From Eublepharis macularius (Eukaryota > Chordata > Lepidosauria > Squamata > Eublepharidae): a DNA stretch of 64,000 nt. Of this stretch, positions 895 through 63,400 are shown piece by piece. Position 1 is the stretch's first letter; each line of letters opens with the position of its first letter. The DNA lies in the NCBI RefSeq assembly GCF_028583425.1, contig NC_072793.1:62005028-62069027 (forward strand), read 5' to 3'. Under the pieces are notes generated by a model, which saw only the letters and a list, made by a program, of their open reading frames with translations, was not told where the DNA came from and searched no databases. The position numbers and the translations under genes are program-made.

Positions 895-3800
895 TTTTTT
901 TTTATAAAATTTTTTATTGGATTAGACACATATAAAATTTATTATAATCACATTCCCTTAAATTTTCCAATTCTAACCCCCTCCCTTTCCCCCCCTTTTG
1001 TAGACTTCCAACAGTTTTCCAACCCCTTGTCTATTCTCCCTCTACTCATTTCAAACTTATTGTACTTATTATAATATACTTTCAAACTCTTCTAAGCTTT
1101 TCTATAGTAACATAGTGCTATCTCTAATTTCCTTCCCAAATGGGTAAAAGTATAACAATCTTAACTTATCTTTTTCAATAATAGTAATAATAATTATTTT
1201 GGTATTCTGTACTCTATCTTACTCTTTCTAAGTACTTCAAAATGGGACAGACAATTTGTCCCTCTTTATGCATAACTTCACATACTTCTATAAACATTGC
1301 ATACATTTATTATAAATCAATCAACTTGACTTGTACTCTATGTGTTACTCTTTACTTTCTTTTACGTCTTGTCCTTTTTGATTAACTAATTTCTCCATTG
1401 TAAAACTACACAACAAACAATTCATGTACACATTCAACAAAGGTCTATCAATTAGACCTATATTATGTATGCTAATGTATATTGATCCTCCATTGTACAG
1501 TTATCTGCTTACTTAAAAAAAATTAATTAAATTCTATCCTTATAATCCTTATAATAGTAACACTGTTGATACCCAACTATTCATACTAATCAAATAAAAT
1601 AATTGCTTAGAATTTTTTCCACTTTACTCTCTCCCCCCGGTATAGTCACTCCCCTCTCCTTTTGTTATATTTCAGTAATTATCAAACTGCCACAGTCCTC
1701 CCACCTCCCATTTTTTCACCAGATATCGTTTCAGCCTCTCCCAGTCCGTGTTAAACTGTCCCGGGTCAAGGTCTCTCAATTTTCTTGTCATTTTATCCAT
1801 CTCCACCATGTACAGCAATTTGTAAATCCAGTCCTCAATAGTTGGCACTTCTTGTACTTTCCATTTCTGCGCATATAAGAGTCTAGCTGCTGCTGTCATG
1901 TAAAATAGCAATGTCCTGTGTTGTGCTGGAATATCTTCCATTCCCAAGTTCAGTAGCAGGAGTTCTGGGTTCTTATTAACTTGAAATTGTAAAATCTCAC
2001 TCATTACTCTTATTATTGCCCCCCAGTACTGCCTAGCTACCTCACAAGTCCACCACATGTGATACAGAGATCCCTCATGCTTTTTACATTTCCAGCATTT
2101 ATTAGATGTATTCGAGTTCCCTAGCGCAATTTTCTTTGGTGTCAAATACCAACGATAAATCATTTTGTAGAGATTCTCTTTAATACTGGTACAAGTTCTG
2201 GGTTCTTATTAACTTGAAATTGTAAAATCTCACTCATTACTCTTATTATTGCCCCCCAGTACTGCCTAGCTACCTCACAAGTCCACCACATGTGATACAG
2301 AGATCCCTCATGCTTTTTACATTTCCAGCATTTATTAGATGTATTCGAGTTCCCTAGCGCAATTTTCTTTGGTGTCAAATACCAACGATAAATCATTTTG
2401 TAGAGATTCTCTTTAATACTGGTACATGTCGTAATCTTCAATGTATTTTTCCACAAATATTCCCACGCCTCCATTGTTATTTCTTTATTAAAATTTATAG
2501 CCCACTTCACCATTTGCACTTTAACTACTTCATCTTCCGTATACCATTTTAACAGTACTTTATATATCTTAGAGATTTCCTTTTTTTCATCTTGTAGAAT
2601 TGCTTTCTCTAAATCTGAGTTCTCCATTCTTATCCCTCCCTTCGCACAGTCCGAATAGTAAAGATCTCTAACTTGTCTATATTGAAACCAGTCATAATTT
2701 GGAGACAACTCTTGTTGCGTCCTTATTCTTATTTTAGCAAGTTCTATTCGCGTTATCTCCTTGTACGTTAAGCACTGTTGTTCATTATCAACCGTTCTCG
2801 GATCTATTACTTCATATGGAACCACCCAGGAGGGGATTCCTTCTTGCAGGTAGTCTTTGTACTTCTTCCAAGTTAAGAAGAGGCTCCTCCGAATATAATG
2901 GTGCAAAAACATAGAATCTGCTTTTACTTTGTCATACCATAAATATGCATGCCATCCAAATAATTTTTTATATCCCTCTAAGGCCAGCAGTTTGCGATTT
3001 TTCAGCTTCATCCAATCTTTCAACCATACCAAACAAATTGCATCGTAATAAAGTCTCAAATTGGGCAATTGCATTCCACCTCTTTCCTTTGCATCCTGTA
3101 ATACTTTCATTTTCACTCGAGGCTTCCTGCCTGCCCACACAAACTCCGATATTTTCCTCTGCCATTTGTCAAAGTGCTTAGAGTCCCTAATGATTGGTAT
3201 TGTCTGTAACAGAAACAATCCAAGATGTCCTACTTCCTCTCCTGTTGAAGTCAAAGTCCTTCCCTTTTCAAAAATGGCGATTCCCTTCTTCCTGTCTCCA
3301 ATAAGGGTCGTCTCTCTCCAGCAGCTCTATCACTGTGACGCACTTCCTGTTTCCCGTCTCTCCACTGCAGCTCTCGCGATGATAGAAATTTTCTCACAGC
3401 CTGCTATCACTCTCTGACCACAGGTATGAAAAACAATTCTCCAGTTTCTTTAATAGCTTCATTTAACTTAGTCCTTTTTCTAAACTATTTCTTGCCGAGT
3501 CTTCCCCTCATTATATTCCGTCTGTTGCAGTTTAAAGTTTCACTTTAAAAGTTCATTACTTTAAGCAATCGATCTCAATTCGAGAGATAGTAATCTTTAC
3601 CTTTTCAAGCGTCTTTCTGGGTTGTAATCACTGCTTCGATCTCAATTTCTTTTCCACCTACTTTTCCCCTGTTGAAGCTTGGGCATGTAGGTCTTATGCC
3701 AGCCGCACTGGCCCCGGTTCTGCCGCAGAGATTTTAGCCGACCTGTCTTAGGGTGGGACCTCAAGAGACGAGAGAGAATCCTTAGCGCAGAACCCCCCCT

Positions 3801-27639: not shown

Positions 27640-29285
27640 GGCCAATCATTGCTCTTTCTGGGCAAAGTGATTGAGAGAGCAGCAGCTGGCCAACTGCAGG
27701 TCTTCTTGGATGGCTCTAGAGCTCTGGACCCTATTTAGTCTGGATTCAGACCAGGTCATGAGATAGGAGATGGCTCTAGTAACTTTAGTGGATGATCTCT
27801 GTCTGAATATAGACAAAGACCATGCCTTGTTATTGCTTCTCCTGGATCTATCTGCAGCCTTTGACACAGTTGACCACACCATCCTGTTGAGGTGTTTGGA
27901 GACAGAAGTGAACATCAAAGGACTGGTTTAAATTATTTCTCATATTAGGAAATCAACTATCTCCAGAATGGGAGTTATCTTCGGAGGTCCTACAGGAAGC
28001 AATCTTATCTCTCATGTTATTCAACTTCTATATAAAGCCTTTAGAGGAACTCATTTGTAGTTATGGAGTGGGATGCCATCAATATGCAGATGACACCCAA
28101 CTCTATATCTCACTATCCAAATCACCACAGTATGCAGTAGAAATCTGGGGTCGCTACCTGACAGCTGTGGTCAAGTGGCTGAAAATGAACAAATTGAAAT
28201 TGAACCCAGACAAGCTGGAAGTAGTGCAGGTTGGGAAGAGAAAGATATTGAAGGACATTGCACTCCCCTCTTTCAATGGAGTTTGTATGACCCTTGCAGC
28301 CTCAGGGACAAGCTACTCATGCAGTTTTTTTAAAGAGTTGCGCCTGGGAACTCAAGTTCCCTGCAGCTAGACAGCACCTTTGAAGAATGGCTGTTAAAAA
28401 ATAAGGAGAGCCCAAAAGGTGTCAGAATGCCTCTGTAGGGGGAGCAGGGGCTCTTCCCTCCCCCTCAAGCTGTTTCCCCATGTCAAAATAGCAGAGGAGG
28501 AAGGTTTCCCCCTGTTTTTTTCTGCTGCACAGAATGCTGCAGCTTGGTTATTATCGGGGGCAAGCAGGAGCATGAATGTTACTTCCATTCTGCAGTCACT
28601 CCATTGGCTCCCCATCAGTTACCGAGCTCAATTCATGGTTTTGATTATCGCATACGAAGTCCTTCATGAACTTGGCCCTCACAGCTACAGGAACGCCTCT
28701 CTCCCTATGTTCCGCCACAGCGGATTCACTCATCTAAAGAGAGTCTTCTGTAGGTGCCACCTTGCACACAAGCAAAATCAACAGCTGCTTATATATATGC
28801 ACTCTCTGCAGTTGCCCCCCACCCTATGGAATAGCCTGCCTTAAGAAATCAGGAAAGCCCCCACTCTCTTGGCTTTCTGAAAAAAATGCCAAACTGAATT
28901 ATTCGAGAGGGCTTTTTCATTCAGATAGGAGGGCTGTACTGTAAGGAGGGGATCTCAAAGAGATAGGGGCCATAGACTTCACTACTACGTGCTGCTAGGT
29001 ACTATCGCCTTATGTTCTATCCATTTCTAAGTATTTGCTATTATGTACTATCTATTGCTTTAAGTACGATCCTACCGGGTAGTTCTATGTTGTTTAATGT
29101 CAGAATTGCTTATGCTCTGTTTCAGCATTTCTGAATTGGATTTTTGCTGATGTGTCTTTGCAAATTTGAATTCGTATGCCCTATGACATTGTCCATTGAA
29201 ATGTCTTTGATATTAACTGTACTAATCTCACACTATGTAATCCGGGGAGAAAGGCAGACTATAAATGACACAAATAAATAAAAAG
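27640..29285 (+). mobile_element. CR1/L2-type LINE fragment, RT to 3' tail
   Basis: The best-kept LINE copy here. It holds 'LLLDLSAAFDTVDH' near 27835, an open frame at 28014 with 'GCHQYADDTQLYISL' (the catalytic box of CR1/L2-type reverse transcriptase), 'WLKMNKLKLNPDKLEVVQVG', and later 'SLHWLPISYRAQFMVLIIAY'. The 3' end carries 'actataaatgacac' and a (aaat)n tail. Sequence between 28370 and 28500 does not fit the RT and may be a replacement or a small insertion. Endonuclease is absent and frames are broken. Confidence 0.8.
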
Positions 29286-30939: not shown

Positions 30940-32725
30940 CACTGAGTCCAGTGGGGAATACTTTCCAGTGGTTAATTATTTGGACGTGTCTGTTTATCGA
31001 ATGGCTGAAAATACGCTGGCAGTATGTCCTTATAGAAAGGAGACTGACAAAAATTCCCTTTTACATTATAGATCGTTCCACCTGAGTCACCTGAGAATGA
31101 ATTTGCCATATGGGCACTTCCTTCGGGTTAAAAGGAACTCCACTAATCGGATTGACTTTAACACTGAAAGTATGAGAATGGTGGATGACTTTAAAAGATG
31201 AGGTTACCCAAGTGGGGTTCTGGAAACAGCTAGACAGCGTGCAATTAGTACCAATAGGGATAATTTGCTTGTACCCAGGGAACGTAAAAAAACTGAACGC
31301 ACTGCTGGTGTTTTTTACTACAGTGTAAAGGCTAATTCCATCAGACGGGCAATTTTAAAACATTGGCCAATACTTAGCGATATTCCAGGGTGTCAGGTTC
31401 CCCCTTTGATAGCCTTTAGAAGGACACGAAATATCAAGGATATAATCATTCAGATATACGCTATAGAAGTAATGAACGTGATACTTGTTTCCCTGAGGGT
31501 CTATACAAGTGTGGTAGATGTAAGCAGTGCTCCTTAATCATGAGAAAAGACGAGGTGAAACAGTTAGGTCTCTGGTCTCCACATGAGTTCATGAATTGCA
31601 ATACGGAAGGTGTGGTGTACCTTTTAAAGTGCCCATGTGGTTTATTGTATGTGGGCAGCACCACATGCTCCATCAAAACTTGCTTGTTTGAACATCAATC
31701 TCGGATAAAAAACCGAATACTGGAGGCTCCATTAGTGCAACATTATATAGATAGAACACACACTGAAACTGACATGCGTTTTACAATATTGCACAAGGTC
31801 AAACAAGGACGTCCAGAAACTACTGTGAAAGAACTTCGGAGGAAGGAGACCTACTGGATTTTCAAGTTAGGGAGCCTGGTGCCGCGAGGCTTGAATGTTG
31901 CCAATGACTTCTCATGTTACTTGGGTTGAGTTATGGACGTAAATGTAATATGTAGGGGTGCTTTAAGGACATAGTTAGTAATATGTATGGTTCCTTTTAA
32001 GGAGAGATTTCCCCAGCATGAAGGTGTGGTATGGATAATATATAATGGCTTTACACAAAGCTAGTGATTATAATGATGCTGTATGAAGTGGATATACTAT
32101 TGGGTACTCATGAGAAAAAACTTTAAAGGAATAACGTAAGTGCTATTATGTTTTTATAACACTGTATTGTAAATATGGACTGTAATTTTATAGTAGTACT
32201 GTTAATTGCTGTATTTTTCTCTAGTGTCTGTACTCTTTGAAAAACATGTTTTGAAACGGGCCTTACCAGGATCTAGACAACCCGTTAGAGGATTCATTAA
32301 GGAAGAAATAATATTAAGGAACTACTTTCATAGTGGTTACAGTCATCTGGAGTGGAAAAATCTCTAACAAGGAACTACTTGCAAAGTGGTTACAGTCATC
32401 TGGAGTGGAAAAATCTCTAACAACGTTTCTTCCCTGTGAGTTGGACACACGGTTCTCAGAACCTTTTAAATTGTTGGAAGGACTAGTGTTCGTATGGTGC
32501 TTTATTTGCATTTGCACTTTACATTGTTTGTGCAATATTCATATTGTTAGCACTTAGAGCACTTAAGCACTTTATCAATTGTTGAGGGAGCCTGGTTTGT
32601 TAGCACCGGTGCAAATGGTTTTCTGTGAACGGGGTTGGTGTTAAGTATTTATACGGTCCATTAATCAATTTCTACATTACTGTTACGTGGTTATACATTA
32701 TTGTTAATAAAACTTTGAATACGTT
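30940..32725 (+). mobile_element. Penelope-like retroelement, 3' part
   Basis: The coding part begins within the C-terminal end of a Penelope-type reverse transcriptase ('VNYLDVSVYRM', 'YRKETDKNSLLHYRSFH'). It passes a Cys-rich linker ('KCGRCKQC') and ends in a GIY-YIG endonuclease at 31540..31929 ('VVYLLKCPCGLLYVGST', 'RRKETYWIFKLG', 'PRGLN'). The reverse-transcriptase core is not present, so the copy is incomplete, and the coding part is broken. The 3' region holds a 53-bp tandem repeat and ends near 'aataaaactttgaatacg'. Confidence 0.85.
32316..32421 (+). repeat. 53-bp tandem pair in Penelope 3' region
   Basis: Two direct copies, 32316..32368 and 32369..32421, each with 'aaggaactact' and 'gtcatctggagtggaaaaat'. 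They differ at a few bases near 'tttcatagt/tgcaaagt'. Confidence 0.85.
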
Positions 32726-33731: not shown

Positions 33732-33930
33732 TTCATCTTCGTTCTTCTGTGCCTCCACACATGGGGACTGCGCAGGCGCAGGCCAGCCGCCGGAGAATTT
33801 TCTAGAGCTTCTATGGCTCCGAAGGGGCCGTTTGTCGCGCGCCTCAGCGACCGTCTTCCCGCCCAAACGGTCACGTGCTCCTCCAGCGACCAACGGCCCC
33901 TTCCCTCAGTTCTCTTCTTGCCGCCGCTTG
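33732..33930 (+). repeat. DIRS left inverted terminal repeat
   Basis: Starts 'ttcatcttcgttcttctgtg' and is the inverted counterpart of 39594..39820, with few differences. The outermost bases differ between the two ends, as expected for DIRS split ends. Confidence 0.9.
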
Positions 33931-34110
33931 GAGAGAACGTTTGAGCTTCGCGCTCTGTGCTTGTGCTTCGTGCTTTTCTGACTGATTGATCTTGGCTTCT
34001 TGACTTCGGACTTCGGACTCGACTATTCTTCGGATCTCCCTCTGGACTTTGACGTGGACTCGGTAATACGACTCGGACTGTTTTGACCTTTCTCTCGCGT
34101 GCCCCTTAAG

Positions 34111-36264
34111 ATGGCCTCCACGGCTCTCTTTAAGCACTGCCTTCAGTGCCACACCAAAATGGCCAAAACCGATGGCCATGGGCTGTGCCTATTTTGTTTG
34201 GGGGAGACCCACAACGTGTCGGCCTGCAAGATCTGCCAGGGCTTCACCAACAAGGCCCGGCAGGATCGGAGGGCCCAACTGAATTCGTCACTGTGGCAGT
34301 CGGTCATGTCCGAGGGGACCCCGTTACCTAAGGCCGGCCCTAGCCCCTCTGCCGGAAGGCTTTCAAGAGCTGGCTCAGTGGCCTCCGCGAGGTCGGGGTC
34401 GAAACCGCGTCCCCCGAGTGCCTCGGCGTTGAGAGCGGCCTCTCCAGCGCAGGGTCCGGTGCGGCCGCCCCGGAGCGCGTCATCCACCAGGTCGGATCCG
34501 AGACCGACATCGGAACTGAGGATCCTGGTGCCAAGTCCCCGGTCGGAACCGACGACCGGTTCGATCCCTATTACATCGAAGAGGTCGAAGCAGAGGTCCC
34601 CTTCGAAGGCGAGGAGCGCGTCGGTTTCGAGGTCTTCTTCGGAACCGGCAAAAAAGAAGAAGAAGACCAAACATCATCGGTCGCCGCATCCCGCTCCCCA
34701 GGAGGAAGTCATCGTGCTTCCTCACACGCCTTCCCCTCATCTGGGTTCCCCCGAACCAGAGGAACTCTCCGTGCCGGTGCCGGATCCGATGGCCTTCGAA
34801 ACGGTGCCCGCAGAGTTTTCGTCGGGGCCGGAGCCGAGCCCGCGCCGTCGGAGTCAACCATCTCCTGCCCTTCGGTCGCCGAGATTGGAACCGAGCCCGT
34901 CTCCTCATCGGGGCCGTCCATCTCCTGCCCGTCCATCTCCGCCTGCTGTCGGTCGTGAGCGACGCCGGTCCGGGGACAGCATTCGATCTGCCCGATCCAC
35001 TGCGTCCCGGCATCGTCAAGCCTCCTACCTTCCCTCGCCATACCGTTGCCAGTGGGAAGGGGCACCTGCTGGTTTCTCCGAGTCGGAACCGGGGCCATCG
35101 ACGTCGAGGCGAACGTGGTTTCCCCCTCCAGTCCAGGGTGAGGACTCCCAGCACGGTTCCGAGGAAGGAGAGGTGGAGAGCCTGGCAGATTACCAGTCGG
35201 AATCCTGGTCCGAACCATCGCCGGCTGATGATCTGGTGCCATCTACGGGCTCCCCATACGAAGACCTCCGCATCTACGCCGACCAGATGGCGAGGATGGC
35301 CCAGGCCCTCGAGATGGACATCTCCTCGGCAACCCCACAGACCAAAGACAAGCTGCTCAAGCGGATATACGGTGACAACCCGGCGTCCATTGGCTTCCCC
35401 ATGCTCGAGGGTATTGAGGAGATCGTGGAGAAGGTGTGGAAGGTGCCCTGTGACCAGCCTCCAACATCTAAGAGGATCGAGCAGCTTTATAAAATCAAGC
35501 AGGGCACCTGGCCGGCGTTGGTGAAGCACCCTCCACCTTCCTCCTTGGTCACGGAGGAATTCAACCCCCGACGGTCGGGTCACTCCTCGGTGCCTGCAGA
35601 TAAAGAGGGCAGAAAGCTTGATGCCATGGGCAGGCGCCAGTACATTGTCGCTTCGCTGGGTCTGAGGATTGCCAACTACCAGACCATCATGGCAGGGTAC
35701 CAGCTGTACCTCTGGGAGAAGTTGGCGTCCTATACCCGGGACCTCCCACCTGAGCAGAAGGCTGTGGTGTCCCTGCTGCAAACGGAGGCTGTCCGGCTGT
35801 CTAAACAGCAAATGAATGCTGGGAGCCACGCTGCTGACACTGCTGCTAGAGGGATGGCTTCGGCGGTGGTCCTCAGGCGCCATTCCTGGTTGCGGTCGAC
35901 CGCCCTGTCTCAGGAGGTGCGTTCCAGGGTGGAGAGCATGCCCTTTGAGGGGGACTCGCTGTTCTCCAAATCCACCGACGAGACCCTGAAAAAGAAGAAG
36001 GAGGACAGGCAGATGGCTAGGTCCTTGGGGCTGGCTCCTGCGGACAAGCCCTCCTCCAGGCCACGGTACGCTCCCCGGTCCGGCCCTTACCATTTCCAGG
36101 GCAGATACCAGCAACAGCGGCCGGGCTACCACCAGTATCCTGCCTACCAGCAGCGGCCTTACCCTCCCGCACAGCAGCAGAGGAGGCGTAGGCCCTTCAA
36201 GCCTCGTCCGTCACAGCAACCGGCCCAGCAGAGAGATCAGCAGGGCGCCGGGAGGCAGTACTGA
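34111..36264 (+). CDS. DIRS gag-like protein (ORF1)
   Basis: About 717 residues from the ATG at 34111. The N-terminus has paired Cys/His groups (CLQCH, CLFC, CKIC) resembling a small zinc-binding module. A long Ser/Pro/Arg-rich stretch follows to about residue 370, then a helical domain (from about 'YEDLRIYADQMARMAQAL') and a Gln/Tyr/Arg-rich tail. This layout is usual for the gag-like first frame of vertebrate DIRS elements. It probably packages element RNA. Confidence 0.8.
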   Translation: MASTALFKHCLQCHTKMAKTDGHGLCLFCLGETHNVSACKICQGFTNKARQDRRAQLNSSLWQSVMSEGTPLPKAGPSPSAGRLSRAGSVASARSGSKPRPPSASALRAASPAQGPVRPPRSASSTRSDPRPTSELRILVPSPRSEPTTGSIPITSKRSKQRSPSKARSASVSRSSSEPAKKKKKTKHHRSPHPAPQEEVIVLPHTPSPHLGSPEPEELSVPVPDPMAFETVPAEFSSGPEPSPRRRSQPSPALRSPRLEPSPSPHRGRPSPARPSPPAVGRERRRSGDSIRSARSTASRHRQASYLPSPYRCQWEGAPAGFSESEPGPSTSRRTWFPPPVQGEDSQHGSEEGEVESLADYQSESWSEPSPADDLVPSTGSPYEDLRIYADQMARMAQALEMDISSATPQTKDKLLKRIYGDNPASIGFPMLEGIEEIVEKVWKVPCDQPPTSKRIEQLYKIKQGTWPALVKHPPPSSLVTEEFNPRRSGHSSVPADKEGRKLDAMGRRQYIVASLGLRIANYQTIMAGYQLYLWEKLASYTRDLPPEQKAVVSLLQTEAVRLSKQQMNAGSHAADTAARGMASAVVLRRHSWLRSTALSQEVRSRVESMPFEGDSLFSKSTDETLKKKKEDRQMARSLGLAPADKPSSRPRYAPRSGPYHFQGRYQQQRPGYHQYPAYQQRPYPPAQQQRRRRPFKPRPSQQPAQQRDQQGAGRQY

Positions 36265-36438
36265 CGGGTCGCGCCAGCCGTGTCCCCGAACTTTTCGGAC
36301 AGACTGAGTCCACTCCTCTCTGAGTGGGAGTCAATAACATCTGACTCATGGGTCTTAACGATTGTTGAACTGGGATACGGGCTGGAGTTCGTTGAGCTGC
36401 CTAGATGCAGTTCACCCCTGACAGCTGTCAATAACACT

Positions 36439-38157
36439 ATGGCCGAGCTGGATGCGGAGATCGTGTCGCTCTTGGCCAAGGGTGCTGTGGAAGAATTGCC
36501 CTATGAGGACTCTGTAAAGGGTTTCTTCTTTAGGTTCTTCCTGGTCCCTAAGAAGGATGGGGGCTTACGTCCCATTTTAGATCTGAGGGGCCTTAATGCC
36601 TTCCTCAAGGTGACCAAATTCAAGATGGTTACGTTGGCGGCTGTGATCGCCTTGCTCAAACACGGGGATTGGTTTGCGGTCCTTGACTTAAAGGACGCAT
36701 ATTTTCACGTGGGGATACGGGAGGAGCACAGGAAATACCTGAGCTTCGTTTACCGGCGAAGGGTTTTCCGGTATAAGGTGCTCCCCTTTGGCCTGTCCAC
36801 TGCCCCACGAGTGTTCACGAAATGTGTGGCCCCTGTGGTTTCCTTCCTGCGGGAAGAAGGCTGTACCATCTTTCCGTACCTCGATGACTGGCTCATCGTG
36901 GCTGAATCGGAGTCTAGGCTGGTGCAGGACATTGGTTTGGTACTTAGCACTTGCCAACGCCTGGGGCTCCTGGTGAACTTTGAGAAATCCAAACTGGTGC
37001 CCAACTGCAGGGTGTCCTACATTGGTGCACTATTAGACTCTGTAGGGGGTAAGGCTCTGCTCCCTTTGGAGAGGGCTCGGTCCCTAAGGGGTCTAGTGTC
37101 CATGTTTAAAAGGAACCGATTCCAGTCTGTGCGCACTATCCAGTGCTTACTAGGGCATATGGCAGCGGACACCTCTGTGGTGCCCTTTGCTAGGCTGCGT
37201 ATGCGCCCTCTCCAGAACTGGTTTGTGCGGAGGTACGATGCTCTGCTGCACCCTCCGTCCCTCAAATTCTCTATCCCGAGGGTCATCCTCTCCTCCTTGG
37301 ACTGGTGGCTGTCTGATGACAACTTGTTTAAAGGGACCCCCTTTGGGTATCAGCACCATGACGTCACGGTTACCACTGATGCATCTCTGTTGGGGTGGGG
37401 GGCTTACTGTGGTGATGTGTCTGTGCAAGATGTCTGGTCTGAGAGGGAAAAGACCCTCCATATCAATGTGCTTGAACTAAGAGCCATTCGTTTCGCACTT
37501 GTGTCTCTTACAGCACTGCTGAGAAATCGTCAGGTGTTGGTGCAGACGGACAACACGACTGCCATGTACTACGTGAATCAGCAGGGGGGCACAGTGTCCA
37601 TGGCCCTATGCCGGGAAGCCACGCTCACTTGGCAGTGGGCTATCAGGAACGGCGTGTCGCTCCGTGCTATACACGTGGCTGGGTCAGACAATGCCCGGGC
37701 AGATGCCCTCAGCAGGGTCCCTTTGCTGGACCACGAGTGGGAACTGAACGTAGAGTGCATTGGGCCGATCTTTCAGATGTGGGGTCATCCGGTGATGGAC
37801 GTGTTCGCCACTGCGGCAACCACCAAGGCCCACACGTTCTGTTCCAGGGCTGGGAGCGACCCCCTCTCTATTGGGGATGCCTTCCAGTTTACGTGGACGC
37901 AGGGCTTGCACTACATGTTTCCTCCGTTCCCCTTGATTCCCAGGGTCCTGTGCAAGATAGAGGAGGACGGGACGGACTGCATCCTGGTGGCCCCCTTTTG
38001 GCCACGGCAGGTTTGGTTCCCGAACCTCCTGCGGATGTCCCAACGGACATATGTCAGTCTGCCCCCTCGGCAGGACCTTCTCCTGAACGGGAGCCTGGTC
38101 CACCACGATCCCAGGAAGCTGCACCTGACGGCTTGGCGGATCGTTCCTCCCCTGTAG
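36439..38157 (+). CDS. DIRS reverse transcriptase, RNase H and methylase-like region (ORF2)
   Basis: The open frame begins at 36280; the first ATG is at 36439. The RT shows 'FFLVPKKDGGLRPILDLRGL', 'DWFAVLDLKDAYFHV', 'LPFGLSTAPRVFTK' and the catalytic 'YLDDWL' near 36880. RNase H follows ('TTDASLLGWGAY', 'HINVLELRAI', 'TDNTTAMYYVNQQGG', 'GSDNARADALSR'). The C-terminal part ('MDVFAT', 'FPPFPLIPRVL', 'LVAPFWPRQVWFP') matches the region annotated as a DNA-adenine-methylase-like domain in DIRS and Ngaro elements. Confidence 0.92.
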   Translation: MAELDAEIVSLLAKGAVEELPYEDSVKGFFFRFFLVPKKDGGLRPILDLRGLNAFLKVTKFKMVTLAAVIALLKHGDWFAVLDLKDAYFHVGIREEHRKYLSFVYRRRVFRYKVLPFGLSTAPRVFTKCVAPVVSFLREEGCTIFPYLDDWLIVAESESRLVQDIGLVLSTCQRLGLLVNFEKSKLVPNCRVSYIGALLDSVGGKALLPLERARSLRGLVSMFKRNRFQSVRTIQCLLGHMAADTSVVPFARLRMRPLQNWFVRRYDALLHPPSLKFSIPRVILSSLDWWLSDDNLFKGTPFGYQHHDVTVTTDASLLGWGAYCGDVSVQDVWSEREKTLHINVLELRAIRFALVSLTALLRNRQVLVQTDNTTAMYYVNQQGGTVSMALCREATLTWQWAIRNGVSLRAIHVAGSDNARADALSRVPLLDHEWELNVECIGPIFQMWGHPVMDVFATAATTKAHTFCSRAGSDPLSIGDAFQFTWTQGLHYMFPPFPLIPRVLCKIEEDGTDCILVAPFWPRQVWFPNLLRMSQRTYVSLPPRQDLLLNGSLVHHDPRKLHLTAWRIVPPL

Positions 38158-39173
38158 GCTTTACTGACGAGATACAGAGAGTCCTCCTGAATGCTCGTCG
38201 GCCGTCCACTAGGCGCGCTTATGCGGCCAAGTGGCGCAGGTTTGAACTTTGGGCACTTGCTAAAGGAGTGGTGCCTGACAGCAGTCCCTTGGGGGTTGTA
38301 TTCGAGTATTTGTGCCACTTGCGTGGCCTGGGCTTGAAGGTTTCCTCCCTCAAGGTCCACCTGGCAGCGATATCAGCTGCTCACACCCGAGTTGAGGATG
38401 CTACACTGTTTTCTCACCCACGATCCCGCCAGTTCCTTAAGGGCATGTACAATCTTTACCCACCTGTGTCGGCGCCAGTGCCTCAGTGGTCACTGTCCTT
38501 GGTACTCTCACGTCTCATGTTGCCTCCTTTTGAACCTATGGCTACCTGCCCCTTGGATATGTTATCCTACAAGGTGGCATTCTTGGTGGCTGTGACATCG
38601 GCCAGAAGGGTCAGTGAGCTGTCTGCACTGCGGTCTGACCCTCCCTTCCTTGTGTTTCATCCCAACAAGGTGGTCCTGCGTCCCTGCCTCGGGTTTCTGC
38701 CCAAGGTGGTGTCCGCCTTCCACCTCTCGCAGGATATCTCACTGCCTGCATTCTTTCCTCAACCTTCCTCTAAGGGGGAAAAGGCCCTCCATTCCCTAGA
38801 CTTGAAGAGGGCCCTAGCCTATTACCTGGATAGGACGAAGGGATTCCGTTCCAGTCCTCACCTCTTTGTATGTTTTGGGGCCAAGGACAAGGGTAACAGA
38901 GCTTCCTCACAGACCCTGTCTAGGTGGATTGTGGCGGCCATTAGCAGGGCCTATTCCCTGGCAGGGGTAGCTTGCCCGCTTCATGTTAGGGCCCACTCCA
39001 CGCGGTCCCAAGCATCCTCTTCGGCACTCCTCAGGGGGGTGCCCCTGGTTAACATTTGTAAAGCAGCCACATGGTCCTCTGCAGACACCTTTGTCAGGCA
39101 TTACGCCATTGATGTCAATGCGGAGCAGGATGTATCTGTGGCCAGGGCTGTCCTACACTCCCTTTTTTCCTGA
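38130..39173 (+). CDS. DIRS tyrosine recombinase (ORF3)
   Basis: An open frame runs 37608..39173, but its first part only mirrors ORF2 in another frame. The recombinase proper seems to begin near 38130 ('FTDEIQRVLLNARRPSTRRA'), overlapping the end of ORF2, as is common in DIRS. Catalytic signature: Arg in 'VTSARRVSELSAL', His-x-x-Arg in 'RAHSTRSQA', and Tyr in 'FVRHYAIDV'. It replaces the integrase of LTR retrotransposons and joins the circular DNA copy to the host site. Confidence 0.9.
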   Translation, partial: GLADRSSPVGFTDEIQRVLLNARRPSTRRAYAAKWRRFELWALAKGVVPDSSPLGVVFEYLCHLRGLGLKVSSLKVHLAAISAAHTRVEDATLFSHPRSRQFLKGMYNLYPPVSAPVPQWSLSLVLSRLMLPPFEPMATCPLDMLSYKVAFLVAVTSARRVSELSALRSDPPFLVFHPNKVVLRPCLGFLPKVVSAFHLSQDISLPAFFPQPSSKGEKALHSLDLKRALAYYLDRTKGFRSSPHLFVCFGAKDKGNRASSQTLSRWIVAAISRAYSLAGVACPLHVRAHSTRSQASSSALLRGVPLVNICKAATWSSADTFVRHYAIDVNAEQDVSVARAVLHSLFS

Positions 39174-39403
39174 GGGAGTCTTGGGAAGATTTTCTTGGCG
39201 TACCTGCTAGGTACCCTTGAGTGAATGAGTGTATATATATGTATATTTGGGTGTATATATGTGTAAATATTGGGTACTGATGTATCACTGCACAGTTTAC
39301 ATAGATGTATATATGCATATCTATTTGTTGTTGTTCTTGTTTGTTCAATAAAATTGTGTTGGACTTCACCCCACCTTCCTTATTGTGTGAAGCTTGGTAC
39401 ACT

Positions 39404-39494
39404 CCCATGTGTGGAGGCACAGAAGAACGAAGATGAAAACAGGGTTAACATACCTGTAACTTATGTTCATCGAGTTCTTCTGTGCTGACACACA
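39404..39494 (+). repeat. DIRS internal complementary region
   Basis: 39404..39437 is the reverse complement of the left edge (33732..33765) and 39436..39494 of the right edge (39762..39820). The two halves meet with about two bases of overlap, giving a template that reads across the joined ends of a circle. Confidence 0.92.
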
Positions 39495-39593
39495 ACCCTC
39501 CCTCCTACCCCGCTGTGAATTCCAATGCACAAAGATGTGGTGGCTGTAACTGAATCTGATGTGTTTTAAGGTGTTACGGCTAAGTGTGTTGGT

Positions 39594-39820
39594 CAAGCGG
39601 CGGCAAAGGAGAACTGAGGGAAGGGGCCGTTGGTCGCTGGAGGAGCACGTGACCGTTTGGGCGGGAAGACGGTTGCTGAGGCGCGCGACAAACGGCCCCT
39701 TCGGAGCCATAGAAGCTCTAGAAAATTCTCCGGCGGCTGGCCTGCGCCTGCGCAGTCCCCATGTGTGTCAGCACAGAAGAACTCGATGAACATAAGTTAC
39801 AGGTATGTTAACCCTGTTTT
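39594..39820 (-). repeat. DIRS right inverted terminal repeat
   Basis: Inverted copy of 33732..33930, extended at the outer side by sequence that is found again only in the internal complementary region ('gttacaggtatgttaaccct'). Confidence 0.9.
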
Positions 39821-41071: not shown

Positions 41072-41467
41072 TGTTAAATAGTGGGTTCAGACACGAGGTG
41101 ATTCAATAGCTCTTTATTTAGCAGGAACACAACACACACTGACAGACTGAACAGAAGTCCTCAATATATATACAGCAGCTCCACCCCCAGAATAACTGAT
41201 AGCCAATGAGAATACATATTTTAGAATACCATCATCTGCATAAACTATATACACTGTTTGAAGTAGACAGGCCACTGATTGGTCTTTATTATAGAGGACC
41301 GATTGGCTGCTGTCATGAGAAAGTAACCAGTGATATTGCAGGGATTATGGACCAATGAGAATGCAGGCTTTGGGAGCCTTGACTGAACCTCAAGCTCAAC
41401 ACAGTATAGTGCATTACAATCAATACAGTAACTACTTTAGAGGCCTTGCTCGGCCCAGTACACAACA
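41072..41467 (-). repeat. 3' LTR of mag-like element
   Basis: About 396 bp, with TGTT...AACA ends on the - strand, preceded by the purine-rich tract. 'gctctttatttagc' holds the inverted AATAAA. It matches 43364..43753 throughout by eye. Confidence 0.9.
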
Positions 41468-43344
41468 CCCCTCCCCCCTTAGTTTGGAATACCCTGTTGT
41501 TCGCAGATAGGCTGGGGAAGATGAGCCAGAATACATTAGAGGCCCTGAGACCAATACATCACACCCCTTCCCCCCTAGTGTGGAACTACTTGATGCCAAC
41601 AGAGTCCTGGAGTGGGAATGGGGAAAGGTGAGCCTGCCAGAGCCTGCACGGTGCAGTCGCTCCAGAGTTCTTTGGGGCCGACAGCCCCGTGTTCCTTGCT
41701 GGCTTTGCTCTGGAGGTGCAGTCTCTTGTGGGAGTTTGCGAGCCACTTGAGGCCGTGGATTGCGGAGAAAAGTCCCGGTTCTGTTTCTGCTCCCATAGCG
41801 GCCAAGGCAGTTTAAGCTGATGTAATTGAGTGCAGAGTGGACCTGATGCTCCTTCCGACGGCTTGTCTTCACTGCTGGCGTGGAGACGGGCGGCCCTTTG
41901 CGGCGCCCTGATGAAACATGCCTGGCAGGGAACTTGCTGTGTGCCGCTTTGCTTATGGATGGGCTGCCTTGTTGGACTCCGGTGACACAGATGCCCAACG
42001 CCTTGAACCAATCAAGTCCCAGCAAACTCGTGCAGTGCCCCTTAACCACAACAAGAGGAAGGAGGCCGTGAAAGTCCTTGTAGCCGACCACAACTCGGCC
42101 AGCTCCAACCACTGGAACCCGACGACCCTGGAGATCCATCAGGCGTAGACTGCTGGGCTTGAGCGGCTGGTTCTTGCCCTTGGAGCACAGGCGGTTGTAG
42201 GTGTCCCTGGAGACAATTGAGAGCGCTGACCCGGAGTCAACCTCCATGACACACAGTGTTCCCTCAATACAAACCGTGGTGTAGATCTTATCTTTGTTGC
42301 CTGCTTGTGTGTGCATGATGACAGTTGTGGTGTGGCATTCATTCCGCTGGCACTCTCTTCCTCCTGGCCTTTGGCAGCGCGGAGTGAGGCGAGGAGACTG
42401 CTGCGGAGAGCCTCCTTTCCTGACAGTTATGCAGGCCCGAGCGATGTGGCCCTTCTTTCCGCATGCCCGGCAGTTGGCATCCCGGAACCGGCATTTCCTT
42501 CTTTCGTGGTCTCCCCCACAACTAGAACAATGGGAACCGTAGTATGGCTGCCTCTCAGAGTGCTGGGCTTGCACTGCATGGAATCTGTGCACACCGTCTT
42601 CTTCCTCAGAGCCACTGTCAAAATCCCCATAGTGGACTGGCTCCTCGTTCAGGGGCAGATCTGGACTCCGCCAACGTCGCACCTCCCGGGTGGACTGGTC
42701 TGCTGCTTCAGCTGCTAGTGCTTCTTTGAATGCTGTTTGGAAGTCGAGGTTCTTCTGCGTGAAAAGCCGGCGCTGTAGCTTCTCATCACGAAGGCCACAC
42801 ACCAGGCGATCACGTAGTGCCATCTCAAGGTCAGGGAAGTTACATTGTCTGGCTGCCTGTCGGAGGGCTGTGACAAATGCCGCTATCGATTCACCTTGCG
42901 CCTGGTCTCGGCTGTAGAACGCATGTCTGCAGGCTATCTCAGATGGCTGTGGTGAGAAGTGCTCCTTGAGTCTGTTTTTTATTGTGTTGAATGCTGTAGT
43001 TTGAAGCTGGGCTGGCGCCACTAGTGCCCGTGCTATATCAAACGTGGAACGCCCACACACGCTGAAGAACGTTGCTCTCGCGAGATCTGTGTCTTCAATC
43101 TTGTTCGCCTCAAGGTAGAAGTCGAAGCGGGTAATGTAGGATTCCCAGTCCTCGGCTGTTGAGTCAAACGGTTCGAAGTGGCCCTTAGCGGCCATGTCTG
43201 CCTTCTGGACGACGCGAGCGTATGTCGGATGGTGGAGGTGACAATTCCTCACGCTTAAGATTTCAGCTTAGGTCTTGGGGCTGCCTACCCAAGCACCTTG
43301 TTAGTGATATCGCTCTGGTATTGGGGCTGCATACCCAATCAGAG

Positions 43345-59867: not shown

Positions 59868-60475
59868 CTACCAGGCACGTATGCCATGCAACGTGGACAT
59901 GCCCCCGTTCCCCTGTGGGATGGAGGTGGGCACGGGGTTCAAGTCCCCCACGCCGAAGTTCATGAAGTTGCCGCCGGCGGCCGCGGGCTGAACGCCTTGC
60001 ACGCCAGGGTAGCTGCAGCTGTAGCTGGCGTTGCAGGCGGCGCCGCTGTAGCTGCTGTAGGGCGGGTAGGCGTTGTAGCCGTAGGGGTTGAGGCTGACGT
60101 TGTAGGGGGAGCTGTAGGGCGAGGAATCCCCCAAGCAGGGCTTCCCGTCGCGGACCAGGACCGGCACGGCGATCCTCCGCGGCGGCGGGAGGCCCACCAT
60201 CTCCAGGCTTTGGTCCTGCCTCTGGCGCTTGCATTTGTACCGACGGTTCTGGAACCAGATCTTCACCTGCGTGGAGGTGAGCTTCAGCACGCTGGCCAGG
60301 TGGTCTCTCTCCGGGGCCGAGAGGTATTTCTGCTGCTTGAAGCGGCGCTCCAGTTCGTAGACCTGGGCCTGCGAGAAGAGCACGCGTGGCTTCCGGCGCT
60401 TCCTCTGCCGGGGCCGCTCCGCATCCTCGGCCTCCCTCTTCTCCTCCTCCAGAGATTTCTGGAGGGCGCACAGAT
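59868..60475 (-). CDS. NKX2-5: NKX2-5 last coding exon (homeodomain)
   Basis: Encodes the cardiac NK2 homeodomain transcription factor. The exon starts at 60475 after the acceptor ttcccggcag, completing an Asp codon, then [20 protein letters not shown], and ends [12 protein letters not shown] with stop TAG at 59870..59868; 201 full residues. The human last exon starts at the same place (ELCALQK). The homeodomain is 60398..60219 and has Tyr54 (NRRYKCKRQ), the mark of the NK2 class that favours AAGTG sites. The NK2-specific domain [17 protein letters not shown] is at 60179..60129. The Tyr-rich region ([16 protein letters not shown]) and the terminal GIRAW are conserved. The human Pro run before the NK2 domain is short here (PPP). 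Exon 1 with the TN motif is not in the window. Confidence 0.97.
60219..60398 (-). other. NKX2-5: Homeodomain segment of NKX2-5
   Basis: 60 residues from [20 protein letters not shown] to CKRQR. Helix 3 is [16 protein letters not shown] see only Lys24 (human Arg) and His33 (human Gln) as changes from the human domain. Confidence 0.95.
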
Positions 60476-63400
60476 CTGCCGGGAAGGAAACACAAGACGC
60501 CCGACGGGCAGTCAGTGCTGGAGCTGCTCGGTGAGACGGGTTTGTTAGCAACTCAAGGGGCCTCCTGCCGCTAGCCCCCTGGAGCTCTCTCTCCCCGGTA
60601 GGAACCCAAGCCGCCTTATAAAATGGCTCTCCTGACAACAACCCTGAGGGGCAGGTTCAGCTCAAAGAGCGACTGGCTGAGCTTCCATGGCACAGCGGGG
60701 ATTCGAACCGGGTCTCCCGGATCCTAGGTGGACACTCTCTAACCATCTGAAGAAGAGAACTGTGATTCTCGAAAGCTTATGCTACAGTAAAGTTGGTTAG
60801 TCTTAAAGGTGCTACTGGGCTCTTTTCTATTTTTACTCTCTAACCACAGCACACGAACCCCAACCAAGGCTAACATGCCATCTACAAGGAGCCCCCTCCC
60901 TCTTCGAAACCAGCTTACATTTCAATTGGAAGTCTGTTTTCACATTGGTTACCAGGTCAGGGCATTCACACGCGCTTTAGGAAGGAGGGTGTTGGACTAG
61001 GAGTGCAAGGGTCCGGATCCACTGACCAAGGGCCACTGGGTGCCTTGGACTGTGATTCTCTCTCGCTCCGGCGAAGTTCACCCAGAGCTGTGAAGGAAGC
61101 AGAGGAGAGTCCAATATATGGGACTCTGCGCTCCAGAGAAGATACAAAAGTGGCAGCGCCCTTACAACTTCGCTTGCGCCTTTTCTGGCTTATTGGACAG
61201 GAAGAGACCAACATCGGCTGGCATGTGCTTGGCCTAGCCACGGAACTCGAGGCCACCCATGAGCTCTCAGAGGCCCACAGGTTGAGCTCACTAATTCACC
61301 TGCCGGCAGAAGAAAGACCCGGCCCCGGAATCGACGCTGGAGTAAAGGCCTTTCGGGATCGCAGCTTTGCTGCTCACAACAGCGCCTTCCCAAACGCGCC
61401 GCCCGAGGACATTCCACTGCAAGAACTAAATGCTACACAGAGAGGCGGCTGACCTCCAGCGGGATTCGAGCAGCCAACTACGGGCAAGATTGCAGCCGCT
61501 GACATTTGGATCTTTCCTGTCCCTCTCAGTAATGCTTTCAAGAAGCACTAGGGTTTGCCTGGGTATTCTGTTTTATTTTTCTGCTGAGGCTTAACTTTCG
61601 AGACTAAGTTCATTAAACGATGGTATGATAACCTGCCTCTCCAATTCAGTGCTCTGGGGTCCCGATTCTGCAGAGGGATCTAAACGACCCCATCCCACAC
61701 CGATTTGTATATACACGCATAATGTATAATCTAGGTATAATGTATAATGACATGACTGTCTATAGGACCAGGAGTAGAGCAAATGCAACGTTCTAGATAA
61801 GATCCACCCAAAGTCCAAGAACTGTCAGGCGCCAATGGCTTCACTGGAAAAAGTTAATCCTCTGCTTAACACTGCAACCAAAGGGATTTTAAAGTATTTA
61901 ACTTGGACCGGATTTCAAGCGTGGGGATCCGATCCATTCCATTCACCCTAAACAGATTAACAGGTGTATTCGGAAACAACTACGCCTTAGATAACAATAG
62001 AATTGACATGCGAGGGATTTGCTTCCAAGTAAATATAGTTAGGAGCGTGAGCCCAAGTAACTAGGAGCACGTCGACTACGTTAGGGTGTGGATGAGGTGA
62101 ACTGATTCAGGCCCCCAAAAGGTGCTTCTGGCTTCTTTCGGAGGGAACTGCAAGAGACGACTTGGAAAATGATCCTGGTCTTGGGATTCAGGAAAGAGCC
62201 CGCGCGATCTTTAATTGGAGGCAATAAGGACGTTCTCTGATTTCATTCGGAAAAGAAAAACAAAGGATGAATAAAGGGTGTGATCCATATCTCCCTGCCG
62301 CCAGCGTCTTAAGGTCCAACCGGATTTGGTGACTGCACCCCTTGACCCAGGTTCTGTGACCTGAGGAGAGGGGAGTGCCCATGTTTCCGAGTAGGCTCTG
62401 CTCTCAAGTACCTTCTGATTTGTAATCAAGAAAGCTATTTAGGACTTGGAGGCTTTACTCAGAATTACTTTTTAAAGAAAAAAGATCGGAATCTTTCCAG
62501 TGCAGCTGGCCTTTGCATTCTCAGTAAACCCGCCACCATTTAACACCCTATCGACATGCATGCAATTCGCAGTGCCGATTTCCCAAAACGCTCTTGGTAC
62601 CGGTGATCCCGGAAAGATCTTTTCCAGCGGGGCTGGGCTGGGCTGGGCTGGAGGTGCTTACAATAGCGAAAGGCTGGAGGTTTTCAAGCGATCTGCAGTC
62701 TGGCCGCAAATATTAAAGATTTCTCCCTTACAATCCTATTGAAACTCACCGGACGGGCACCCTGCATTAAGGGTCGCTGAGACGATGCACTTACTTAAAA
62801 TGTGGGACATTACTTCCGAGTACCGGGGGCTTGTATTGAAATAAATGTTGTTATTCTTTAAGGTGGCAGAGAACTTTTGTTTTATTTTCTGCCAAGCACA
62901 TTTATCGATTTATTGGCAGGGATTACTTGACAGGACAGCCCTTAAATTTCAAGTGGAAGAGTTTGAAGAGGGTTTTCTCTCTTTGCGACTTGGAAACACA
63001 AGGGCTTTAACGACGCCTGGCTACCCGCACATTTGGAACTGGGGCAATCAATTGGGCTTCCATCTGTGTACATGTAGAAACCGGTTTCGGATTGCATAAC
63101 TTGGGCTGGATCATGTGTATTGTACCTAAAACTGTAGTCAGTGAGTGTCACATTTTCTTCCAGGGGTCTCATCCACGGCAATATGGAAACACAGACCAAG
63201 ATCCCAGTATCGTGTACAAGCGACCCCGAAGATGTTTGGGATCAGAAAAACAGGTCTGCCTTGAAAACTATTTTCATATGGGAAAGCCGTCTTTAAAAAT
63301 CCATGAATTTTAGGATCCAAGGCTTCTGCCAGTGGAATCCTATGCAGGTCTACTCAGGAACCAGTCCCAGGTAAGTATGCAGCCCAGTATGAGTTGCAGC

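Follow-up and report, generated by a model that had tools for sequence, protein, structure and literature searches.

The 64,000-nucleotide stretch of the Eublepharis macularius genome analyzed here (assembly GCF_028583425.1, contig NC_072793.1, positions 62,005,028 to 62,069,027 of the forward strand; hereafter the window) carries a complete DIRS1-like retrotransposon at 33732..39820, with which we have addressed the question of how DIRS retrotransposons express three heavily overlapping open reading frames (ORFs), namely those of gag, of reverse transcriptase (RT) with its RNase H and methyltransferase (MT) regions, and of the tyrosine recombinase (YR). From the arrangement of its frames, the element is likely to represent a family with recent activity in which Gag is produced together with a Gag-RT product, the latter through programmed readthrough of the UGA codon closing gag. 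Ribosomes stopping at this UGA would release Gag, and a small share of them would read through it to produce a Gag-RT-RNase H-MT fusion. According to the published DIRS-1 model, RT would then copy the RNA, the internal complementary region (ICR) would supply the terminal sequences and close the circle, and YR would integrate this circle into the genome by recombination at a short T-rich core. Synthesis of YR in the window family would involve further recoding, perhaps a -1 shift from the RT frame. The coding regions and the border between gag and RT are the following, in window coordinates:

34111..36264, + strand: gag ORF, 717 amino acids, terminated by UGA, with a LAP2alpha-like part at about 35.4-36.0 kb
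36262..36267, + strand: UGA-CGG, gag stop and proposed readthrough site, preceded by the codon UAC
36265..38157, + strand: RT/RNase H/MT-region ORF, 630 amino acids, in the gag frame, first in-frame ATG at 36439
36274..36286, + strand: 5' arm of the base stem (13 bp), its first paired base being nucleotide (nt) 10 past the stop
36372..36385, + strand: 3' arm of the base stem
37476..39173, + strand: YR ORF, in the -1 frame relative to RT, overlapping RT up to 38157, core from about 38160

Gag and RT lie in one frame, and the sole separator between them is UAC-UGA-CGG. The RT ORF has no in-frame ATG over its first 58 codons, and the next ATG of any frame, at 36348, is out of frame. Since these 58 codons carry residues that are invariant in all 15 aligned N-termini of DIRS RTs, including that of the window (R13, W21, D27, W29, G37, Y38, E41 and F42), ribosomes must pass or bypass the UGA. 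The same border recurs in other copies of the family, which were retrieved from the same 2.24-Gb genome and picked by best score, a choice that favours intact ones (the best 70 of 26,044 first-look candidates were scored with the RT protein and the best 62 of 25,618 candidates with the gag protein). UGA is present in 38 of the 38 distinct places read, followed by CGG in 32 of them; the frame reported is 630 codons long in all 70 RT matches and 721-727 codons in all 62 gag matches, uniform lengths that we take to mean the same stop in all. The gag +1 frame in the window closes within 14 codons of the UGA. Downstream of the stop, the outermost pair of the stem joins 36274 to 36385. Of 2000 dinucleotide shuffles, 7 give an equally good helix at that spot, and 26 of 1637 positions along the element carry one as well; the cells of the base stem are paired at 99.7% in 22 distinct copies, G-U changes included; one position of the stem has G in the window copy and in 4 of the 38 places (G-U pair), and A in the other 34 (A-U pair). 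In type II readthrough, found in alphaviruses, tobraviruses, furoviruses and coltiviruses, UGA is followed by CGG or CUA and often, at a distance of about 8 nt, by an extended stem (PMC3542737; this and the other papers cited by PMC number are considered in the parts available), and the window border fits both features. The viruses in question are RNA viruses, whereas the window element is a YR retrotransposon with a stem that starts at nt 10; the retroviruses in Table 5 of the same paper use UAG.

The family is young and recently functional. Across 20 full copies, namely the window element and 19 fetched copies, pN/pS is 0.17 for gag, 0.10 for RT and 0.15 for YR, and purifying selection is acting on all three proteins. 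The 70 scored RT copies are all 97-100% identical in protein, 68 of them without internal stops, and the scored gag copies are 93-100% identical, with 43 of 62 free of internal stops. Among the 20 full copies, one stop interrupts gag in two and YR in one (indels relative to the window element were counted). An earlier note on this DNA, made from the sequence alone, had considered complete copies uncommon, which is wrong for this genome given the preponderance of stop-free RT copies and the presence of both ends at all 19 loci fetched. Its proposal that the element moved recently is instead upheld by the low pN/pS values (0.10-0.17), by the 100% match of the ICR to the element's own ends and by the closest fetched copy, which differs from the window element at 45 of 5052 coding sites.

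Several observations weigh against readthrough at the gag UGA. Two-sided compensatory changes are missing from the stem (0 of 37 pairs), and the total fold is moderately unusual, with a z of -2.48 and 111 of 821 element windows folding equally well; it is matched by 15 of 500 synonymous permutations and by 33 of 500 resamplings. The codon after the stop is UGG instead of CGG in 6 of the 38 places, and conservation of the UGA itself is weak evidence of selection, the copies being close relatives. Moreover, the Candida element Tca2 resembles the window element in having gag and pol parted by a UGA with a possible 3' structure, although it is a long terminal repeat retrotransposon and not a YR element, and its gag UGA with the predicted pseudoknot gave no readthrough in a yeast reporter (PMC2194720).

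A different layout emerges from other DIRS families of the same genome, which were sampled by a LAP2alpha (PF11560) search scoring the best 150 of 3,989 candidates. Of 40 short pieces cut past the LAP2alpha domain, 35, which group into 16 clusters at 90%, have a UGA, the next base being C in 34; in these 35 pieces the gag and +1 frames are both stop-free for roughly 105 following codons, and the third frame has 2-7 stops over the same stretch. The codon before the UGA is CCC in 21, TCC in 11, GCC in two and GCA in one, and the codon after it CTC in 27, CTA in five, CTG in two and ATA in one. The border consensus of the 16 clusters is NC(C/A)_UGA_CU, with RT in the +1 frame and YR in the gag frame, and all 16 cluster representatives have UGACU, against a mean column identity of 71%. 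A more distant group of ten 51-nt pieces (10 rows from a further set of 150) has GCA-UGA-CUA in nine and GCA-CGA-CUA in one. The exceptions among the 40 pieces are L059 and L092, with an unreadable border, L083, with one stop in the RT frame, L089, in which gag and RT are fused in one frame, and L088 (G000:C6:44896733-44897253), which has no gag-frame stop and for which a single frame of 1628 codons is reported, as expected if the UGA alone parts gag from YR.

Four longer pieces were obtained from these other families, two of them complete and clean. Past the UGA, both complete examples keep the gag frame stop-free over 979 and 980 codons, which span the 632-codon RT gene and reach the end of YR; synonymous permutation of RT leaves on average 17.3 and 20.1 stops in this frame, with minima of 7 and 9 (2000 trials each), against the 0 observed. 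The first Met in the gag/YR frame appears after about 240 codons, and the stretch preceding it is also stop-free, a result reproduced by 2 of 5000 and 0 of 5000 permutations. The remaining two pieces are not clean, since the gag frame of L071+L101 contains three stops across RT, against 15.5 expected, and L067+L102 has an RT frame of just 211 codons. Comparison of the two complete families gives 61% identity for RT and 66% for YR, while the linker, that is, the gag/YR frame over RT, shows no sign of amino-acid selection between these two families (34% identity, vs 32% in the unused frame). The linker frame is therefore stop-free and unconstrained in sequence, as would be the case for a translated linker. 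In 14 of the 16 representatives there is a strong helix whose 5' arm lies 6-26 nt beyond the UGA (matched by 19 of 1000 shuffles at most); the helix is not exceptional in L067 and L071 (335 and 157 of 1000 shuffles match). The energy signal in the 14 may be inflated by a G-run in the 5' arm that is encoded by conserved residues; the global fold at the border ranges in z from -2.95 to +1.61 across the 16, and their consensus fold has a 10-pair helix from nt 14 past the UGA that is 89.4% paired, a value equalled by shuffled controls, with no two-sided change.

Considering these frames together, it seems reasonably probable that one UGA would act as a three-way switch in the other families: stopping would yield Gag, a +1 shift would yield Gag-RT-RNase H-MT, and readthrough would yield a Gag-linker-YR product, in which the overlap would be translated as a linker of about 630 residues, drawn from another reading frame of the RT gene that lacks stops and whose sequence is not conserved. 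The window family would have lost the +1 arrangement, and the same UGA would now be its Gag-RT readthrough site. The evidence for the three outcomes comes from the two complete examples and, in the remaining clusters, from the about 105 codons after the UGA. The step from RT to YR is -1 in both layouts, whereas that from gag to RT is 0 in the window family and +1 elsewhere, and the shift-prone codon before the UGA is gone in the window family, which has UAC. Being that of one family among many, the window layout looks like the derived form. As part of the same proposal, the long ORF overlap of DIRS elements would find its explanation in the three-way use of the UGA.

The border of the other families can also be compared with the +1 shift sites of antizyme, which are UCC_UGA in most cases, CCC_UGA in a few and GCG_UGA_C in yeast (PMC5009743). 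The DIRS families are alike in having TCC, CCC, GCC or GCA before the UGA and a product in the +1 frame, and differ in that the zero frame past the UGA is also open, to YR. A further difference concerns structure: mammalian antizyme 1 has one just 3 nt past the site, described as a pseudoknot (PMC5009743), and the DIRS border has a strong helix past the UGA in 14 of 16 representatives, devoid of covariation.

Access to the recombinase in the window family poses a separate problem. The -1 frame of RT contains 28 stops upstream of 37476 and none over 37476-38157, and the latter stretch is stop-free in 20 of 20 copies; zero stops over the RT/YR overlap occurred in 3 of 5000 synonymous permutations. 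A YR start at ATG 37608 is ruled out, as the codon is GTG in 17 of the 20 copies, and YR is thus left without a conserved start before its core. On the basis of this frame pattern, a second recoding step is probably needed for YR, for which the overlap offers one candidate site, supported by weak evidence:

37584..37590, + strand: G_GGG_GGC heptamer in the RT frame, candidate -1 frameshift site

The heptamer sits 108 nt inside the open stretch and is intact in 19 of 20 copies; it is absent at the QGG motif of the other-family pieces (0 of 4). Its role in a shift is called into question by its disruption in the one remaining copy, by its encoding of the conserved QGG motif, by a downstream fold that is not significant (z -1.35, 25 of 300) and by the lack of amino-acid constraint on the overlap in the YR frame, where pN/pS is 2.27, vs 2.31 in the unused frame. 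A -1 shift at this heptamer would be the best candidate route to YR, one that we put forward tentatively and with some doubt.

The gag UGA might be viewed instead as a disabling mutation, for instance from CGA to TGA, in a dead copy of an element whose working copies have a single gag-RT ORF. Such a change is a common form of CpG decay, and three pieces of diverged families whose border can otherwise be read have no UGA, namely L088, L089 and L110 (CGA). However, the presence of the UGA in all 38 family places and of the 630-codon RT frame in all 70 matches, as well as pN/pS ratios far under 1, speak against this explanation; the ratio of observed to expected CpG, 0.68 inside the element vs 0.25-0.31 in the flanks, further indicates little decay. 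We consider a dead-copy origin of the UGA extremely improbable and reject it for the family as sampled. A role for termination and reinitiation after gag, in place of readthrough, is also very hard to sustain: some viruses are known to reinitiate translation past a stop, but the ATG at 36348 is out of frame and a start at the in-frame ATG at 36439 would lose the conserved N-terminus of RT.

More credit, if still limited, is due to the possibility that spliced RNAs or internal starts give rise to RT and YR and that the frame layout is incidental. The Met lying about 240 codons into the gag/YR frame in both complete examples of other families would suit an internal start, and each of the three ORFs, fused to GFP, was expressed in RNA interference mutants of Dictyostelium (PMC5633606). 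Against splicing, a crude scan found no GTRAGT donor in 33732-38200. Against internal starts stand the 240 codons from the UGA to that Met, equally devoid of stops in a way that the permutations reported above hardly ever reproduce, the lack of conservation of the upstream YR ATG in the window family, and the first ATG past the gag UGA, which is out of frame. We regard this alternative as unlikely, and retain programmed readthrough of the gag UGA as the preferred reading for the window family.

The element itself is an ordinary member of the known DIRS1-like kind, abundant and young, with the following outer parts:

33732..39820, + strand: complete DIRS1-like element, 6089 bp (repeat search; same ends in 19 of 19 further copies)
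33732..33930, + strand: left inverted terminal repeat (ITR; repeat search)
39347..39352, + strand: AATAAA, possible polyadenylation signal
39404..39494, + strand: ICR, its halves overlapping by AA at 39436-39437
39594..39790, + strand: right ITR (repeat search)
39791..39820, + strand: right extension, matched by the ICR only (repeat search)

The two ITRs pair in inverted orientation with 96.8% identity across 190 nt (BLAST) and are unlike each other at their outer ends. The reverse complement of the element's left end is reproduced without mismatch by the ICR at 39404-39437 (34 of 34), and that of its right end at 39436-39494 (59 of 59), so that each half fits its own side, as predicted for ends templated by the ICR; the AA shared by the two halves corresponds to the T-rich circle junction. 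All 19 further full-length copies have an identical left start base and a right end inside a run of 2-4 T, and in none of the 20 insertions, judged by eye, do the two 8-nt flanks share a repeat, in keeping with DIRS1-like elements, which make no target site duplication; the same start base and terminal T run with differing flanks indicate that these borders are those of the mobile unit. In the fetched copies (L040-L058) two, three or four T precede the right flank, and the left start is always TT. The variable T count on the right, set against the constant TT on the left, suggests that strand exchange takes place inside the T run of the circle junction. The Dictyostelium DIRS-1 transcript is without most of the right repeat (PMC5633606), implying that the repeats may be re-copied every cycle, and the match between ITRs may consequently be of limited value for dating the insertion.

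In the protein sequences, the RT motif YLDD is encoded at 36877-36888 and the YR motifs SARR at 38598, HSTR at 38994-39005 and HY at 39099. The RT ORF matches RVT_1 above the Pfam cut-off (E 5e-24); matches to RT_RNaseH (E 0.003) and, in YR, to Phage_integrase (E 1e-4 to 3e-4) fall under the curated Pfam cut-offs, and a comparison of YR with the PDB gave no match at E 1. Similarly, the LAP2alpha match in gag has a Pfam E of 1.3e-4 and 22 bits, vs a cut-off of 25, and gag matches the LAP2alpha structure 2v0x in the PDB with E 2.5e-4; a LAP2alpha-like part, with its origin, has been described for ORF1 of vertebrate DIRS elements (PMC4495291). The N-terminus of gag contains three CxxC pairs (residues 10-42, window 34138-34236), likely a zinc-binding module. 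The MT region at 37570-38154 has no Pfam match and aligns to its counterpart in another DIRS family, whose RT ORF is 36% identical to that of the window across 623 residues. The earlier note had assigned the element to DIRS and had taken its ends, 33732 and 39820, from the ICR, both of which are borne out, the former by ITRs, ICR, RT with weak RNase H and recombinase motifs, the latter by the exact ICR matches and the agreement of the 19 copies. It had also described open gag, RT/RNase H and recombinase parts with the YLDD and R/HxxR/Y marks, again correctly, and had overlooked that gag and RT share a frame with a single UGA in it and that a conserved start codon is missing upstream of the YR core.

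Published DIRS1-like elements of Anolis (AcDIRS1 and AcDIRS2) and Xenopus (DIRS-37_XT) are like that of the window in their size of close to 6 kb, in ITRs that diverge at their outer ends, an ICR, a right extension, T-rich ends and the gag / RT-RH-MT / YR order, RH standing for RNase H (PMC3266345; PMC9210276). AcDIRS2 is reported with a long ORF overlap and AcDIRS1 without it (PMC3266345; PMC9210276), a contrast that may correspond to the two layouts seen in the present genome. The available parts of both papers do not mention a UGA at the end of gag that shares its frame with RT or YR, or readthrough or frameshifting as a means of expression, and the available text of PMC3266345 contains neither 'stop codon' nor 'readthrough'. 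YR retrotransposon ORFs have been noted to overlap and to be possibly frameshifted (PMC3783388), the 'read-through' of PMC12440569 concerns transcripts, and PMC4157794 gave no match to the keywords sought. Among the open-access titles, abstract openings and passages listed, none was found that ties DIRS to readthrough or frameshifting as an expression mechanism, nor did the portions of the open-access literature examined explain the expression of vertebrate DIRS ORFs.

Searches outside this genome gave no relative of the RT and YR proteins among viral contigs and none of RT in the genome contig collection and phages; among plasmids there was one weak RT match, in Wolbachia. Motif patterns had no match in viral contigs, and their single match in the genome contig collection, unsupported by tblastn, is rejected as due to chance. 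Rfam and tRNA scans of the window found nothing. Other ORFs in the window that look retroelement-derived are a 611-codon gag-like ORF at 41432-43267 (-), with a weak aspartyl protease match under the cut-off and probably of another retroelement, an RT fragment at 27912-28370 (+; RVT_1 2.8e-8, CR1-like by eye), a Penelope-like GIY-YIG part at 31420-31929 (+) and an L1-like ORF2 end at 1672-3326 (-), the last two recognized by eye, their scanned pieces being without Pfam match at 0.01. A homeodomain ORF at 59868-60656 (-; Pfam 1.1e-20), which we take to resemble NKX2-5, lies about 20 kb from the DIRS insertion.

If the proposed mechanism is true, tyrosine-recombinase retrotransposons would join the users of programmed readthrough and of antizyme-like +1 shifting. 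If, in addition, one UGA gives three products, it would constitute an unusually compact decoding switch, present in many young copies of one genome. ORF pipelines that seek separate frames from ATG to stop could then call intact DIRS copies broken.

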